A stretch of DNA of 42,346 nucleotides from Bordetella parapertussis (lineage in GTDB: Bacteria; Pseudomonadota; Gammaproteobacteria; Burkholderiales; Burkholderiaceae_E), in assembly GCA_945872335.1 (NCBI GenBank), contig CAMBZS010000006.1:1-42346 (forward strand), read 5' to 3'. A program made the position numbers and the translations under genes. The notes beneath the pieces were generated by a model that ran no database searches, was not told the DNA's origin, and saw only the letters and a list, made by a program, of their open reading frames with translations. Below are positions 326-7,138 of this stretch, one piece after another; within the stretch, counting starts at the first letter, position 1, and every line of letters starts with the position of its first letter.

Positions 326-1296
326 TACCGCCTCCGCCCTGGCCAACGCAGCCCCGCCAACCCGCGCGGTGCAAACAGCACCACCGCCAAAAGAACCCAT
401 CCCACGTAGAACTGCCAGTAAACGGTGAATTCGGCGATCAGGTCTTCGAGGATGAGAAGCAACAGCGCGCCCCATACGCCACCGGTGAGAGTGCCGACAC
501 CACCCAGAATCACCATGATCATCAACACGCCAGACTGCGTCCAGTGCAGCAGGTTGGGGCTGACATAGTTTTGCTGGTTCACCATGAGCGCGCCGGCCAG
601 CCCGCCCATGGCGCCGGCGATCACGAACAGGATGAGCTTGTAGCGGTACACCGGAAACCCGACCGACTCGGCTCTGAGGTCATCGTCGCGAATCGCCAGA
701 ATCACCCGGCCGAACCGGGCATGCATCAACCGGTGGATGAGCAGCAGGCAAATCACCAGAATGCCCAGCGCAAGCAGGTAGAACGCCACCTCATCCTTGA
801 AGTCGATGCCGAAGCCGAAATCGGAGCGGCGCTTGATGTTGAGGCCTTCGTCGCCCCCGTAAGCCTTCACCGAATTCACCAGGTAATAGATCATCTGCGC
901 AAAGGCGAGCGTGATCATGATGAAGTAGACGCCCCGGGTGCGTAGCGAAATGGCGCCGATCACCAGCGCAAAGAGCCCCGACACCACAATGGCGGCGCCG
1001 AAACCCACCCAACCGTTCGGCATGCCCTCGTGGATCATGATGCCCACGGTGTACGCGCCTACGCCGACAAAGGCTGCATGGCCGAACGACACCAATCCGC
1101 CATAGCCCAGAATGAGGTTCAGGCTCACTGCCGCAAGACCGTAGATGAGCATTCGGCTGGCCATGCTGGTGTAGAAATCCAGCCCCTGCGAACGCAGCAC
1201 AAACGGCAATGCAATTGCCGCCGCCAGCACCACCAGCCAGAGCACGATTTGCCCGGACTGCCTCGAGGCTGAATGCAGCGAAGAACGATTCACCAT
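325..1296 (-). CDS. livM: Branched-chain-type ABC transporter permease (LivM-like)
   Basis: This 323-residue inner-membrane permease pairs with the LivH-like protein to form the translocation channel. It starts MVNRSSLHSASRQSGQIVLW and shows about eight to ten hydrophobic segments plus the conserved LivM stretches LNLILGYGGLVSFGHAAFVG and AIRDDDLRAESVGF, the latter being the cytoplasmic loop that meets the ATPase. An in-frame extension to 1743 exists, but it lies inside livH and looks like out-of-frame coding sequence. I chose the ATG at 1296 because it overlaps the livH stop codon (ATGA). The length fits the family. Confidence 0.93.
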   Translation of the reverse strand: MVNRSSLHSASRQSGQIVLWLVVLAAAIALPFVLRSQGLDFYTSMASRMLIYGLAAVSLNLILGYGGLVSFGHAAFVGVGAYTVGIMIHEGMPNGWVGFGAAIVVSGLFALVIGAISLRTRGVYFIMITLAFAQMIYYLVNSVKAYGGDEGLNIKRRSDFGFGIDFKDEVAFYLLALGILVICLLLIHRLMHARFGRVILAIRDDDLRAESVGFPVYRYKLILFVIAGAMGGLAGALMVNQQNYVSPNLLHWTQSGVLMIMVILGGVGTLTGGVWGALLLLILEDLIAEFTVYWQFYVGWVLLAVVLFAPRGLAGLRWPGRRR

Positions 1297-2213
1297 CAGC
1301 CCCGCGCCGCAAACAGGCCCTGCGGGCGAACGAACAGCACGATCGCCATCAGCACATAAATCAGGATGGATGCCACCGCTGGCCCGGCCGCCGAAGCCCA
1401 TTGCGGCGGCAGCAGTTCGCGAAACAGATGCGGCAGCAGGGTGCGGCCGAAGGTATCGACCAATCCGACCAGCACCGAGCCCACAAACGCCCCGCGAATG
1501 GACCCGATGCCGCCAATGACGATGACCACGAAGGCAAGAATCAGGATGCTGTCGCCCATGCCGACCTGAATGGCCAGCAAAGGCCCAAGCATTGCGCCCG
1601 CCACCGCGCACAAGGCAGCCCCCACACCAAACACGGCGGTGAACAGCGCACGGATGTTGACGCCCATGGCCATGGCCATTTCGCGGTTGGAGGCGCCTGC
1701 GCGCACCAGCGCGCCCACCCGGGTTCGCGTGACCAGGAACCACAGCAGCACGGCAATCACCAGACCCACACCGATAATCATCAGTCGGTAGCTCGGGTAG
1801 TAGAGACCGGGCAGCAGTTCCACCGGGCCCGACAGCGCCTGCGGCGTGGGCAGCGACATATCCGAGCCCCAGATCATCCGCACCGCTTCATTGAGGATCA
1901 GGATGAGCGCAAAGGTGGCGAGCACTTGCGCAAGATGATCACGCTGGTAGAGCGTTCGCAGAAGCGTTGCCTCCAGCAGCATGCCCACGATGGCAGTAAG
2001 CGGCACCGCCAGCACGATCGCGAGCCAGAAGGAATTGACGATGGGCGCAAGCCACGCGGCAAAGAACGCGCCCACCATGTAGAGCGCGCCATGGGCGAGA
2101 TTGATCATGTCCATGATGCCGAAGACCAGCGTGAGCCCGGAGGCCAGCAGGAACAGCATCAGACCGAACTGCAGGCCGTTCAGGGCCTGCTCGACAAGAA
2201 GGATCAGACTCAT
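1296..2213 (-). CDS. livH: Branched-chain-type ABC transporter permease (LivH-like)
   Basis: This 305-residue inner-membrane permease is the second channel subunit of the liv-type importer. It begins MSLILLVEQALNGLQFGLML and carries the family hallmarks: the N-terminal stretch ASGLTLVFGIMDMINLAHGA and the C-terminal IVIGGIGSIRGAFVGSVLVG. It is predicted to have about eight membrane segments. Its stop overlaps the livM start. It is separated from the upstream binding-protein gene by 57 bases that contain a strong GC hairpin, which may reduce expression of the channel relative to the receptor. Confidence 0.93.
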   Translation of the reverse strand: MSLILLVEQALNGLQFGLMLFLLASGLTLVFGIMDMINLAHGALYMVGAFFAAWLAPIVNSFWLAIVLAVPLTAIVGMLLEATLLRTLYQRDHLAQVLATFALILILNEAVRMIWGSDMSLPTPQALSGPVELLPGLYYPSYRLMIIGVGLVIAVLLWFLVTRTRVGALVRAGASNREMAMAMGVNIRALFTAVFGVGAALCAVAGAMLGPLLAIQVGMGDSILILAFVVIVIGGIGSIRGAFVGSVLVGLVDTFGRTLLPHLFRELLPPQWASAAGPAVASILIYVLMAIVLFVRPQGLFAARG

Positions 2214-2222
2214 GTGACGGTG

Positions 2223-2245
2223 GGCCGCCCCAGGGCGGGGCGGCC
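2223..2245 (-). terminator. Intercistronic hairpin between receptor and permease genes
   Basis: Two perfect 9-base arms (2223-2231 and 2237-2245, GGCCGCCCC/GGGGCGGCC) flank a 5-base loop. The element lies between the receptor stop codon and the livH start and has no T-tract in the minus-strand direction. It is therefore more likely a partial attenuator or an RNA-stabilising hairpin that keeps receptor mRNA in excess than a full intrinsic terminator. That role is inferred from position only. Confidence 0.5.
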
Positions 2246-2270
2246 TGCGATCAGCCAGCGGCGCCGGCGA

Positions 2271-3452
2271 TCACTTCATGGGGCAGTCTTGCACGTAGGC
2301 ATCACCGCGGTTGACCATCACCGGGGTGTTGCTCACCACGTTGTTGACCAACCGGCCCTGCGAGTCTTTCTGCACCTCGCGCAGGTAGTAGTTCTGGATC
2401 GGGTACTGGTTGGTGTTGAACTTGAACTCGCCCCGCACCGATTCGAACTTCGCCGCCTTGACGGCCTTCAGTACAGCGTCCTTGTCCTCGATCTTGCCGC
2501 TGACCGTCTTGATGGCTGCATCGATCAGGAGCGCGGTGTCGTACGCCTGGGCTGCGTAACCGGTAGGCAGTCGCTTGTACTCCTTTTCGAACTCGGCCAC
2601 GAAGCGCTTGTTGGCAGCGTTGTCGAGGTTCATCGCCCAGTGGGCGGTGTCCTGAAGGCCCAGCATCGCATCACCCACCCCACGGATGATGTCCTGATCG
2701 GCGCCAAAGCCCGGGAGCAAGAGGCGGGTCTGCTTGTTCAAGCCAGCCGCCACAAACTGCTTGATGAAGTTGGTGCCCATGCCGCCAGGAAGGAATGCGT
2801 AGAGCACGTCGGGTTTGGCCGCGCGAATCTCGGCGAGTTCGGCCGAGTAGTCGAGCTGGCCGAGCTTGGTGTAGACCTCGTTGACCACCTTGCCCTTGTA
2901 GAAGCGCTTGAAACCGGCGAGCGAGTCTTTGCCCGCCTGGTAGTTGGGCGCAACCAAGTAGGCGTTCTTGAAATTCTGGTTGGTGGCGTGCTGGCCAGCG
3001 GCCTCGTGATAGGCGTCATTTGGCCAGGACACTGCAAAGAAATAAGGGCTGCAGTCCTTGCCTGCGATAGGTGAAGGCGCGGCGTTGGGGCTCAGGTAAA
3101 CGGTTTTGCCCTCGATGGCTTCGGGCAGCCCCGCGAGCATGATGTTGGAAAACACGACGCCAGTGAGGAAATCAACCTTGTCGCGCTTGACCATGCGCTC
3201 GAACAGCTGCTTGCCGACATCGGGCTTGAACTGATCATCAGCAATGAGCACTTCGGCCGGAAGACCGCCCAGCTTGCCGCCATTGAGCTTCACGACCAGC
3301 ATGAAGGCATCGCGAATATCGTTGCCAATGGCAGCGTTGGGGCCGGAGAGCGTGCTCACCAGACCCACTTTCACCTTGTCGGCAGCGCCCGCAGCGCCAC
3401 TTGCACCCAGGGTTGCAGCGGCGAGTGCCGCGGCCAGCATCTTCAAGCGCAT
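2271..3452 (-). CDS. livK: ABC transporter periplasmic substrate-binding protein (LivK-like)
   Basis: This 393-residue exported receptor belongs to the type I periplasmic binding proteins (Peripla_BP_6 family) and captures the ligand for the adjacent importer. It starts MRLKMLAAALAAATLGASGA, a signal peptide probably cleaved after an AGA or GAA site near residue 24. The mature protein opens with DKVKVGLVSTLSGPNAAIGN, the usual first strand and ligand loop. I chose the ATG at 3452 because AAGGAGA lies just upstream; a longer form to 3494 would bury the signal peptide. The gene is 38 bases after the photolyase-like gene on the same strand, so its promoter lies inside that gene or it is read through. 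The ligand is unknown; members bind amino acids, amides or aromatic acids. Confidence 0.92.
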   Translation of the reverse strand: MRLKMLAAALAAATLGASGAAGAADKVKVGLVSTLSGPNAAIGNDIRDAFMLVVKLNGGKLGGLPAEVLIADDQFKPDVGKQLFERMVKRDKVDFLTGVVFSNIMLAGLPEAIEGKTVYLSPNAAPSPIAGKDCSPYFFAVSWPNDAYHEAAGQHATNQNFKNAYLVAPNYQAGKDSLAGFKRFYKGKVVNEVYTKLGQLDYSAELAEIRAAKPDVLYAFLPGGMGTNFIKQFVAAGLNKQTRLLLPGFGADQDIIRGVGDAMLGLQDTAHWAMNLDNAANKRFVAEFEKEYKRLPTGYAAQAYDTALLIDAAIKTVSGKIEDKDAVLKAVKAAKFESVRGEFKFNTNQYPIQNYYLREVQKDSQGRLVNNVVSNTPVMVNRGDAYVQDCPMK

Positions 3453-3490: not shown

Positions 3491-4645
3491 TCATGAGGGG
3501 GACGGATCACGGGCAGGTTTGCCTGGCGCCACCCGCTTCCAAAACGCCGAAAACGAGCGACAGCGCTGCGCTGGATCGGGATAGAGGCGCGGCAAGGCCT
3601 GTCCGACCCCCTCGGGCAACCAGTCGCCCAGATGAAGATTGGCCAGGGTTCGGGCCGATCGAGGCGGCGGCGCCTCGCACCAGATCACCGCATCGGTCAG
3701 CTGCCGCATGGCGGCGAGTACGAACTGCCAACGCCGTTCGCTCCAGGGCCAGCGGCGATGAAACGGGGCCACCAGCACGCCCACAGCCCGACGGCCAGGC
3801 GGCGCCGGCGCAAGCGCCCAAGGATGAACCAGCCAGGCGCCGTCCAGATCATGCGTATCGCCTCTGGCAACATCGAACGGCGGTTCGGAATACAACGCCG
3901 GTTGGCTTGACGGCGGGGCTGTGCGCACCCGCGCGTCGGCCGCGCGAGGCGGCGTTCGCGCAAGGGCATCCAGCGCCTCATAGCTCGTATCGAGTACCGA
4001 CCCCGGACTGTGCCAGGCACGCGGCGCAAAGCGCGCCACATTCTCGGCATTGAACAGATAGGGCTTGCTGCTTCCCGTGCCTGCCACCCATTGCCAGGAC
4101 AGATGGTTGCTCGCGAGATCCCCATCGAGCAGATGGCCAACCATCCAGTCGGCGCCCGCCCGCCAGTGGATCTTCCGGACGTGCACCAGATAGGACGCAA
4201 GCCACAGCCGGGCATGGTTGTGCAGCCAACCGGTCTGCACAAGTTCGCGCACCGCATGATCGATCACCGGTATCCCGGTACGCGCCGAGAGCACATCATC
4301 AGGCAACCCATCGCAGTAGGCGGCATCGGGTAGCGGCCCGGGGTGAAGCGATTGAAAGATCGCCTCGCCGTCGTGCCGCCAGGCGTGATGGAAATATTCC
4401 CGCCAGCCCAGTTCGATGGCAAAGCGGTGCGTGGCGTCAATTCGATGCCGATTGCTCACCGCCGCCCAGACCTCCGGCACGCTCACGAGGCCATGCGTGA
4501 TGTAGGGCGAGAGCCGGCTGACCGTGCCGTCCAGATGGTTGCGCGTGCGGGCGTAGGCCTGCGGGTCGAACGCCGAAAGCCTCGCCAGCGCGGCCTCGCG
4601 GGTGGGCGCAAAGTTACCCCATGACGGGTCTGCAGGCGGACTCAT
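3491..4645 (-). CDS. Photolyase/cryptochrome-like FAD-binding protein lacking the N-terminal antenna domain
   Basis: This is a 384-residue protein whose first 220 residues match the helical FAD-binding domain of DNA photolyases: GTVSRLSPYITHGLVS (40-55), WREYFHHA (81-88), a TGIPVIDHAVREL helix (123-135), DGDLASNHLSWQW (174-186) and GTGSSKPYLFN (189-199). W161 and W184 could serve in electron transfer. The roughly 200-residue N-terminal alpha/beta antenna domain of normal photolyases is absent; the protein begins directly at the FAD domain. After a Pro/Ala-rich linker (about 228-262), residues 266-372 read like an alpha/beta unit (AVGVLVAPFHRRWPW, then DAVIWCEAP). The ATG at 4645 is chosen over a GTG at 4663 because GAGGA precedes it. 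It is the last gene of the photolyase cluster. FAD binding is likely; repair activity is unproven. Confidence 0.85.
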   Translation of the reverse strand: MSPPADPSWGNFAPTREAALARLSAFDPQAYARTRNHLDGTVSRLSPYITHGLVSVPEVWAAVSNRHRIDATHRFAIELGWREYFHHAWRHDGEAIFQSLHPGPLPDAAYCDGLPDDVLSARTGIPVIDHAVRELVQTGWLHNHARLWLASYLVHVRKIHWRAGADWMVGHLLDGDLASNHLSWQWVAGTGSSKPYLFNAENVARFAPRAWHSPGSVLDTSYEALDALARTPPRAADARVRTAPPSSQPALYSEPPFDVARGDTHDLDGAWLVHPWALAPAPPGRRAVGVLVAPFHRRWPWSERRWQFVLAAMRQLTDAVIWCEAPPPRSARTLANLHLGDWLPEGVGQALPRLYPDPAQRCRSFSAFWKRVAPGKPARDPSPS

Positions 4646-4690
4646 CGATTGACTGATCCTCACGGCATCGGCCCGGCGCCCGCACGGCTG

Positions 4691-5308
4691 TCAGACACCT
4701 GCCGATCCTCTCGCGAGGCGGGTCCGAACCTTGTCAAGCACCGCACGCAGAAATCGCATCAGCATCCAGATGACCAGAACGGCGAGTGTCACCAGCAGGA
4801 CAAGCAGCACCGCGAACACTGCGGGCTTGCTGACCGCCAGCCACAACATGCCCAGCGACAGGCCGTCTTCGGTGAAGCTCGCGAGCAGGTTGGACACCGG
4901 CTCGGGCAGGGTGTTGATCGCCGCGCGCACGCTGGTCTTGGCGAGCTGCGAGCTTGCCGCGAGCGAGCCCCCCAGCAGCGCGCCCGCTACCCCCATCACC
5001 GCGCTATCCGCACCCAGCACGGCTGCCGCCAGCGCAGCGCCAGCAGGCACCCGGATCACGCTGTTCACCAGATCCCAGAATGAATCGAGGCCGGGGATCT
5101 TGTCGACCAGGAACTCGGTGAGGAGCAGGAGCCCGCTCAGCCCGAGCAACACCGGGTGTTCGAGCAACTCGAGTGATGCGGGAAGATCGACCCACCCGAG
5201 GCGACTGGCCATGCCAGCGGCAAAGAGCGTGGCGTAAAGCCGCAGGCCGCTCGCCCAGCCCAGCGCGGCAGCAAGCGCGAGCAATCCGGCCTGATCGGAA
5301 TCAGGCAT
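4691..5308 (-). CDS. DUF4126 membrane protein
   Basis: This 205-residue integral membrane protein matches the DUF4126 family in pattern. It has an N-terminal GWASGLRLYATLFAAGMASR segment, a central AAVLGADSAVMGVAGALLGG segment and two C-terminal hydrophobic helices (about 165-190), ending in a basic cytoplasmic tail (MRFLRAVLDKVRTRLARG). The function of the family is unknown. It sits between the FeS photolyase (35 bases upstream) and the photolyase-like FAD protein (45 bases downstream) on the same strand, so co-transcription is likely. Whether it has any role in light response or is only a passenger cannot be decided from sequence. Confidence 0.82.
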   Translation of the reverse strand: MPDSDQAGLLALAAALGWASGLRLYATLFAAGMASRLGWVDLPASLELLEHPVLLGLSGLLLLTEFLVDKIPGLDSFWDLVNSVIRVPAGAALAAAVLGADSAVMGVAGALLGGSLAASSQLAKTSVRAAINTLPEPVSNLLASFTEDGLSLGMLWLAVSKPAVFAVLLVLLVTLAVLVIWMLMRFLRAVLDKVRTRLARGSAGV

Positions 5309-5343
5309 GGGCGAGCCCGCTGCGCAGGCGGTGTTCGGAGGTC

Positions 5344-6957
5344 TCAGACACGCCCTGTCTCCAACAGCCCGCCCTCGCGGATGAACTGCGCGCGCTCGCG
5401 AATGCTGCGCAATTCATCGGCCGGGATCCGGGCCAGATTCTTGACCTGCAAGGCCATCCGGGGGTTGGCGGCAAGCCGCGCCTGATGACGCGCCAGAAAA
5501 TCCCAATAGAGCGTGGTGAAGGGACAGGCCCGATCGCCGGTGCGTTCGCCCGGGCGGAACCTGCAGCCGCCGCAATGGTTGGACATGCGCTCGATGTATT
5601 TGCCCGTGGCCGCATAGGGTTTGCTCGCCATCAGACCGCCATCGGCGAACTGGCTCATGCCCAGCGTGTTGGGAAGCTCCACCCATTCGACCGCATCCAC
5701 ATACACCGACAGATACCAGGCATGGACCTGCCTCGGCTCCACGCCCAGAAGCAGCGCATACAGCCCGGTCACCATGAGGCGTTGAATGTGATGCGCATAG
5801 CCAAGACGGAGCGTCTGACCGATGGCATCCGACAGACAGGCCATCGGCGTCTTGCCGGTCCAGTAGAACTCGGGCAAAGGCTCACGCGCATCAAGCGCGT
5901 TCATTTCAAGGTAGGCCGGCATCCGCAGCCAGTAGAGGCCCCGAACGTATTCGCGCCAGCCCAGGATCTGCCGGATGAAACCTTCCACCGAGGCCAGGTC
6001 GGCGCGGCCTGCACGCCAGGCCGCTTGCGCCGCTTCAATCACTTCAAGTGGCGACAGGAGCTTCAGATTCAGCGCGGCGGAAAGCAGCGAGTGATAGAGC
6101 CAGGCTTCGCCCGCCCAGATCGCATCCTGCCAGCGGCCAAAGCCGCACAGCCGGTAGGCGATGAAGTCATTCAAGGCGGCCAGGGCGTCTTCGCGCGTGA
6201 CCGGCCAGCCAAATTCCGCGAGATCGCCGGGGTGCGACGCAAACCGTGCGTTGACCAGTCCGATCACGTCGGTGGTGATGTCGTCGGGGGCGAACCGGCG
6301 GGGCCCGGGCAACATGCCGGGGCCCTCGGCGCCAAAGGCCTCACGATTGTCGGCATCGAAGTTCCACTGTCCGCCCGCCGGGCCCCGACCGTCGGCCGCA
6401 CTGGCGTCGTCAACCATCAGCACATCGTGGCGTCGCCGCATCTCGCGATAGAAATATTCCAGGCGCAACTGCTTGCGTCCCGCGGCGTGACGCGCAAATT
6501 GCTCGCTGCTGCACAGGAAGTGGCGATCGCCGCGCACCTCGAGCGACACACCCATGCGCGCGCACAGGTTGCGAATCGCATCGAGCACCCGCCAGTCGCC
6601 CGGTTCGGTCATCACAACCGACTGCGGCATCGCCTGCGCGAGAGTCTGTTCGAGCGCGCTTGCGAGCGACGCGGCCGGCCCCTGCGCACCATCGAGCGCG
6701 TGGTAGTCAACCCGCCAGCCTCGCGCCTCGAGCGCCTGCGCAAAGTGACGCATGGCCGACAGAAACACCGCGATCCGCTGTTTGCTGCTCGGAACGTGGG
6801 TGGCTTCCTCGATCGCCTCGCACATCCAGAGTCGATCGAGCGCCGGGTCGAAGCCGTCGAAGGCGCTCGACTTCAGGTCGAGCTGGTCGCCCAGCACCAG
6901 AACCCAGTGGCGGGGCGGTCTTGGCGGCTGCGGCGGGCTGCTCGGGCGACGGGGCAT
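5344..6957 (-). CDS. FeS bacterial cryptochrome/photolyase (PhrB-type, (6-4) photolyase family)
   Basis: This 537-residue protein belongs to the FeS-BCP photolyase family, whose studied members repair (6-4) photoproducts using FAD, a ribolumazine antenna and a [4Fe-4S] cluster. The N-terminal alpha/beta antenna domain opens with HWVLVLGDQLDLKS (17-30); the C-terminal helical FAD domain follows from about residue 250. C374, C462, C465 and C478 show spacings of 88, 3 and 13, the same as the four cluster ligands known from Agrobacterium PhrB. H389 and H390 in GYAHHIQRLM match the catalytic His pair. The ATG at 6957 precedes a Pro-rich N-terminal tail of about 16 residues. It follows the DUF2256 gene by 31 bases and probably shares its transcript. 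Confidence 0.93.
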   Translation of the reverse strand: MPRRPSSPPQPPRPPRHWVLVLGDQLDLKSSAFDGFDPALDRLWMCEAIEEATHVPSSKQRIAVFLSAMRHFAQALEARGWRVDYHALDGAQGPAASLASALEQTLAQAMPQSVVMTEPGDWRVLDAIRNLCARMGVSLEVRGDRHFLCSSEQFARHAAGRKQLRLEYFYREMRRRHDVLMVDDASAADGRGPAGGQWNFDADNREAFGAEGPGMLPGPRRFAPDDITTDVIGLVNARFASHPGDLAEFGWPVTREDALAALNDFIAYRLCGFGRWQDAIWAGEAWLYHSLLSAALNLKLLSPLEVIEAAQAAWRAGRADLASVEGFIRQILGWREYVRGLYWLRMPAYLEMNALDAREPLPEFYWTGKTPMACLSDAIGQTLRLGYAHHIQRLMVTGLYALLLGVEPRQVHAWYLSVYVDAVEWVELPNTLGMSQFADGGLMASKPYAATGKYIERMSNHCGGCRFRPGERTGDRACPFTTLYWDFLARHQARLAANPRMALQVKNLARIPADELRSIRERAQFIREGGLLETGRV

Positions 6958-6988
6958 TGAGTGCTTTCGCTAAACGGTTGATTCGCAC

Positions 6989-7138
6989 TCAGCCTGGTGC
7001 AGGCCGGGTCCGGCGACAACGCTCGGAGCAATAGCGGACCGACTCCCAATTGCGCGCCCAGGCCTTGCGCCAGGTCATGGTGCGACCGCAGGCCGCGCAC
7101 GGCTTGCTGGGAAGGTATTGCTTGTTGCCCTTGAACAT
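6989..7138 (-). CDS. DUF2256 zinc-ribbon peptide
   Basis: This 49-residue protein belongs to the DUF2256 family. It shows the fixed pattern [19 protein letters not shown] followed by YCSERCRR, so four cysteines in two CxxC/CxxxC pairs probably bind one metal ion. A longer open frame extends to 7315, but its extra residues are unlike the family. The ATG at 7138 gives the normal length, although its ribosome binding site is weak. DUF2256 genes are often found beside or fused to FeS-type photolyases, and here the photolyase starts 31 bases downstream. A role as accessory or partner of the photolyase is an inference from this neighbourhood. Confidence 0.85.

Follow-up and report, generated by a model that had tools for sequence, protein, structure and literature searches.

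A short photolyase of a Burkholderiales lineage with inverted domain order and a strongly reduced C-terminal domain of probable antenna origin

Inverted photolyases, in which the catalytic FAD domain precedes rather than follows the second domain, are already present in the literature (PMC9426592, PMC13274461). The layout is published for the NewPHL, for the short photolyase-like (SPL) proteins, and for the cyanobacterial Phr4-7. The NewPHL of Dinoroseobacter shibae and Methylobacterium mesophilicum are single-strand-specific photolyases, and a NewPHL with a Trp dyad repairs cyclobutane pyrimidine dimers (CPDs) in single-stranded DNA (PMC9426592, PMC13274461). The Dinoroseobacter protein bears such a dyad (PMC8948257), which in NewPHL is found together with an Asn near flavin N5 (PMC8948257, PMC12083526). 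SPL proteins—originally from Xu et al. 2021, and described in PMC9649867 and PMC9178010—have been proposed as possible ancestors of the photolyase family (PMC9649867, PMC9498864). The cyanobacterial Phr4/Phr5 and Phr6 (PMC9426592) share the reverse order with the protein described here, an FAD domain followed by a photolyase domain, encoded in one or two genes. The apparent lack of an antenna domain has also led to the proposal that short photolyases model the ancestral light-driven repair enzyme. Relatives that bear an antenna-type domain at the opposite end, in various states of reduction, make this proposal testable.

The protein analyzed here is an inverted short photolyase from a Burkholderiales lineage without Fe-S, whose C-terminal domain is strongly reduced, and it represents a solid, mildly unusual member of the known inverted class. 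Its gene lies in the window—the whole stretch of 42,346 nucleotides of Bordetella parapertussis DNA that was analyzed—at the end of a same-strand run of DUF2256, FeS-BCP, DUF4126, and short photolyase genes:

3491..4645, minus strand: short photolyase gene (P0001) with inverted domain order, 384 aa, 80 relatives
3527..3868, minus strand: C-terminal strand/helix region, residues ~260-373, a probable reduced antenna-type domain (AlphaFold2, motifs, profiles)
3956..4609, minus strand: FAD-binding catalytic domain, residues ~13-230 (Pfam, PDB sequence matches, Foldseek)
4691..5308, minus strand: DUF4126 gene, directly upstream of the short photolyase (PF13548, E 9e-51)
5344..6957, minus strand: FeS-BCP / prokaryotic 6-4 photolyase gene (PF04244 DPRP, E 1e-73)
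6989..7138, minus strand: small zinc-finger-like DUF2256 gene, first of the run (PF10013, E 2e-20)

Read from an ATG at 4645 on the minus strand, the open reading frame codes for 384 residues. FAD_binding_7 (PF03441; residues 78-205, E 9e-27) is the sole Pfam match of this product, and sequence matches to photolyases in the PDB are confined to residues 13-203. The full AlphaFold2 model matches photolyases over ~200-250 columns in Foldseek, as the FAD part would predict. A DNA_photolyase (PF00875) antenna domain was not found by Pfam anywhere in the 384 residues. Likewise, the search for a hidden N-terminal domain upstream of 4645 found none: the upstream extension of the frame stops at a GTG at 4663 and the DUF4126 gene adjoins, hence no such domain is hidden there. 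No orphan antenna gene was found elsewhere in the genome (assembly ~91% complete), whose only two PF00875 domains lie within two further photolyases of full length, the one on contig C16 being of class I type and the one on contig C62 DASH-like. The preliminary description had read the protein as beginning directly at the FAD-binding domain, with its N-terminal antenna missing. Both readings hold, and a truncated N-terminal domain encoded elsewhere, which would have spoken against them, turned up neither upstream nor as a separate gene. Against the DASH model TIGR02765, the short photolyase reaches 102.6 bits, under the cut-off of 317. The DASH-like photolyase on contig C62 itself scores well under the curated DASH cut-off.

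With the class I CPD photolyase of the same genome, the short photolyase shares the FAD-domain fold and the active-site residues, whereas the class I enzyme bears an N-terminal antenna, the complete C-terminal FAD_binding_7 helices, and a full Trp triad. The FAD/CPD residue equivalents Y31, S43, L45, S46, E78, W81, R82, N143, R146, D174, D176, N180, W184, and W186 are kept; we take them to match Y222, S235, L237, S238, E274, W277, R278, N341, R344, D372, D374, N378, W382, and W384 of Escherichia coli photolyase, with N180 retaining the Asn378 equivalent. A Trp dyad of W184 and W161 (the W359 equivalent) is kept as well, and the distal W306 position is occupied by D107. Nearly all sampled short photolyases have Val or Ile at the Thr234 position; at the CPD-contact Met345 position, 66 of 73 relatives have Met, and the window lineage has Leu. 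The four Fe-S cysteines are absent from the window family, which shows Val, gaps, and Thr/Ser at the Deinococcus cysteine positions. This differs from some SPLs, which according to Xu et al. 2021 reportedly carry Fe-S cysteines, and from the cyanobacterial Phr4 and Phr6, which retain all four together with a recognizable photolyase domain. In the window protein, the cysteines are lost and the domain is strongly reduced. The neighboring FeS-BCP / prokaryotic 6-4 photolyase belongs to the same superfamily, but is set apart by its DPRP-type N-terminal domain, its Fe-S cysteines, and different active-site residues.

Overall, the architecture is that of the NewPHL/SPL kind, that is, an N-terminal FAD domain without an alpha/beta domain ahead of it and a C-terminal domain after it. 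The small size of the C-terminal domain, the Trp dyad, the Asn at the N378 position, and the lack of the four-cysteine Fe-S set are likewise common to NewPHL. On the other hand, the alphaproteobacterial NewPHL-like proteins (Ruegeria, Novosphingobium, Niveispirillum, Peteryoungia) group on a branch of their own, and their C-terminal domain shows no detectable alignment to that of the window family (E 0.47). Both domains may nevertheless be diverged antenna derivatives.

The AlphaFold2 model of the full protein, built with 73 sequences, has a mean pLDDT of 92.2 and a pTM of 0.90, with ~94-98 over residues 250-370. Its C-terminal elements are E271-274, E287-292, H293-298, H303-316, E320-323, E332-334, H337-342, and H365-372 (E, strand; H, helix), and the same elements are retained when the C-terminal region is modeled in isolation (pLDDT 91). 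Residues 265-375 carry a signature conserved among the 80 relatives, WLVHPWxL...FHxxWPWSxxRWxFVxxRM...CxSFSxWW (in shorter form WLVHPW...FHxxWPWSxxRWxFV...CxSFSxxW). Here, dN/dS amounts to ~0.09-0.16 (dN/dS pairs of 0.044/0.469 and 0.055/0.354 for two close relatives), and the region is therefore under purifying selection. The strand/helix character first noticed for the last ~110 residues is thus confirmed by a confident model, in which the region is compact and not disordered. The accompanying suggestion of a likeness to the photolyase antenna domain fared differently in a fold comparison: when Foldseek compared the isolated region with PDB structures, there was no antenna match and no match of any kind at E<=0.001, the best being dihydrofolate reductase at E 0.19.

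Because the window's own C-terminal region shows no antenna fold match, its antenna identity rests on a chain through homologues from Deinococcus. These plasmid-borne proteins have the same order, an FAD domain and then a C-terminal domain, which is here a fuller, antenna-type one. Deinococcus sp. QL22 divides the two between genes in inverted order: one, of 257 residues, has the FAD domain only, and its end overlaps by 4 bases with a second gene, of 173 residues, for the antenna-type domain (L114:1390-2681). The Deinococcus relatives mirror the reverse order of the cyanobacterial Phr4/Phr5 and Phr6, split pair included. Of the four Deinococcus C-terminal domains, three match PF00875, the only relevant Pfam family to score, below its curated cut-off (E 2e-4 to 1e-3). 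Compared with a profile of 31 antenna domains, the Deinococcus C-terminal profile aligns collinearly over 131 columns (E 6e-10, probability 96.6%). Queried as a single sequence against the PDB, the antenna-type protein of QL22 retrieved no more than a weak match to a class II photolyase (E 1.3). The window-family profile, widened with diverse Burkholderiales members beforehand, in turn aligns collinearly with the Deinococcus domain (E 5e-5) and with the Persicobacter domain (E 8e-5), where all profile E-values come from hhalign and each holds for a single comparison. Directly against class I antennae, the match is marginal (E 0.009-0.014), as it was for the profile trimmed to its core before the diverse relatives joined (E 0.04-0.05). 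As decoys served 17 families built from neighboring genes: with the window family as query, none of the 17 scores as well as the profiles of Deinococcus, Persicobacter, or the antennae; with query and target swapped, one decoy exceeded the antenna-to-window match in raw score. For 57 of 65 positions, the direct residue mapping and the one via Deinococcus fall within 3 columns of each other. On these profile comparisons, the C-terminal domain is probably homologous to the photolyase antenna domain. Hence, the suggested antenna likeness finds its support in the profile chain and not in the fold of the window's own region. The rearranged order, for which a circular permutation had been considered, is supported by the relatives and by the published inverted photolyases (PMC9426592, PMC13274461) in the form of an inversion in the order of whole domains.

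With rather high confidence, we thus assign the protein to the short photolyases of the NewPHL/SPL kind, with an inverted order in which the catalytic FAD domain is followed by a small domain probably decayed from an antenna. The Foldseek null result, the marginal direct antenna match, the E of 0.47 against the NewPHL-like domain, and the Leu in place of Met345 are counted against this explanation. A genuine short-photolyase FAD domain might instead have been joined by an unrelated strand/helix domain, its antenna likeness being due to chance or convergence. The first two of these points would fit such an origin, as would the lack of any Pfam match for residues 206-384 at E<=1. It is nevertheless unlikely: the Deinococcus and Persicobacter matches are collinear, involve domains placed likewise behind the FAD domain, and lie beyond all decoys; PF00875 is the one relevant Pfam family with which the Deinococcus domain scores; and the residue mappings are largely transitive.

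A further doubt concerns function, as the class I and DASH-like photolyases of the same genome could leave the short photolyase redundant or functionally different. If repair fell to these enzymes, the protein might be a cryptochrome-like photoreceptor or a redox-only flavoprotein, which would be compatible with the loss of the distal tryptophan and with the Leu at the Met345 equivalent in the window lineage. This is quite improbable, given that the equivalents of the CPD contacts E274, W277, N341, and W384 and of the photolyase Asn378 vary little or not at all and that the linkage to a 6-4 photolyase gene is conserved; moreover, the related Trp-dyad NewPHL repairs CPDs in single-stranded DNA (PMC9426592, PMC13274461). 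The absence of the N-terminal antenna domain might also suggest a truncated, decaying pseudogene that has lost its N-terminal half. This can be dismissed with near certainty: the short form is intact in ~78 of the 80 relatives, both of its halves are under purifying selection, and the frame in the window is intact—the conservation of the short form refutes decay of this sort.

The inverted short photolyase is most likely a CPD photolyase, its repair activity, substrate, and chromophore content being predictions. Blue light would be absorbed directly by the fully reduced flavin, from which an electron would pass to a CPD flipped into the pocket formed by E78, W81, N143, and W186, splitting the dimer, while photoactivation of the flavin could proceed via the two-tryptophan chain W184 and W161. 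By analogy with NewPHL, single-stranded DNA is probably the likeliest substrate. Rather than harvest light, the C-terminal domain most likely packs against the FAD domain and closes it off, since too little of it is left for a likeness to a complete antenna. For NewPHL, Emmerich et al. 2020 reportedly ascribed sealing of the FAD site to the C-terminal domain.

The 80 relatives found in the genome collection are mostly from Burkholderiales. A search with the C-terminal profile across this order finds the domain in 30 of 250 genomes; the phylum-wide search of 398 genomes returned the window's own genome only. In a tree of FAD domains, obtained by a quick method and including long branches, class I and DASH photolyases are joined in a 99% clade that excludes the short photolyases. 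The latter comprise the window family, the alphaproteobacterial NewPHL-like group, Deinococcus, and Persicobacter, with no firm branching order among these groups. It is conceivable, and we propose it tentatively at somewhat less than even chance, that the C-terminal domains of short photolyases represent a decay series of a relocated antenna—recognizable in Deinococcus, reduced in Bacteroidota, and minimal in Burkholderiales. If true, the simple architecture would be derived, which would undercut the view, put forward in the literature, that short photolyases without an antenna are similar to the ancestor of the photolyase/cryptochrome family. One genome of the window's genus (G003:C190) yielded no window-type short photolyase and bears an alphaproteobacterial-type one instead, a pattern that suggests replacement through gene exchange. 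In Persicobacter sp. JZB09 (L152:1691-2281), the short photolyase is directly followed by another photolyase-type frame, one whose antenna is N-terminal. In Acidovorax temperans (L062:5001-6812), the short-photolyase frame reaches 604 codons, possibly through a C-terminal fusion of ~200 residues.

Among the 73 informative relatives, that is, those with enough upstream sequence, an FeS-BCP gene lies directly upstream on the same strand in 30, with gaps of mostly -19 to +66 bases, and a same-strand DUF2256 homologue is present at the locus in 30 of 73. These figures are counts and not independent events, since the loci were chosen by their similarity to the window protein. DUF4126, by comparison, occurs at the locus only in the closest relatives. 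The short photolyase is probably co-produced with the upstream FeS-BCP 6-4 photolyase, so that one operon would cover both main UV lesions. The recurrence of this pairing suggests such a compact operon for both lesions in Burkholderiales. Long frames are also found on the plus strand, at 5173-6960 (595 aa) antisense to the FeS-BCP gene and at 1209-3074 (621 aa) antisense to transporter genes; they are probably a by-product of high G+C.
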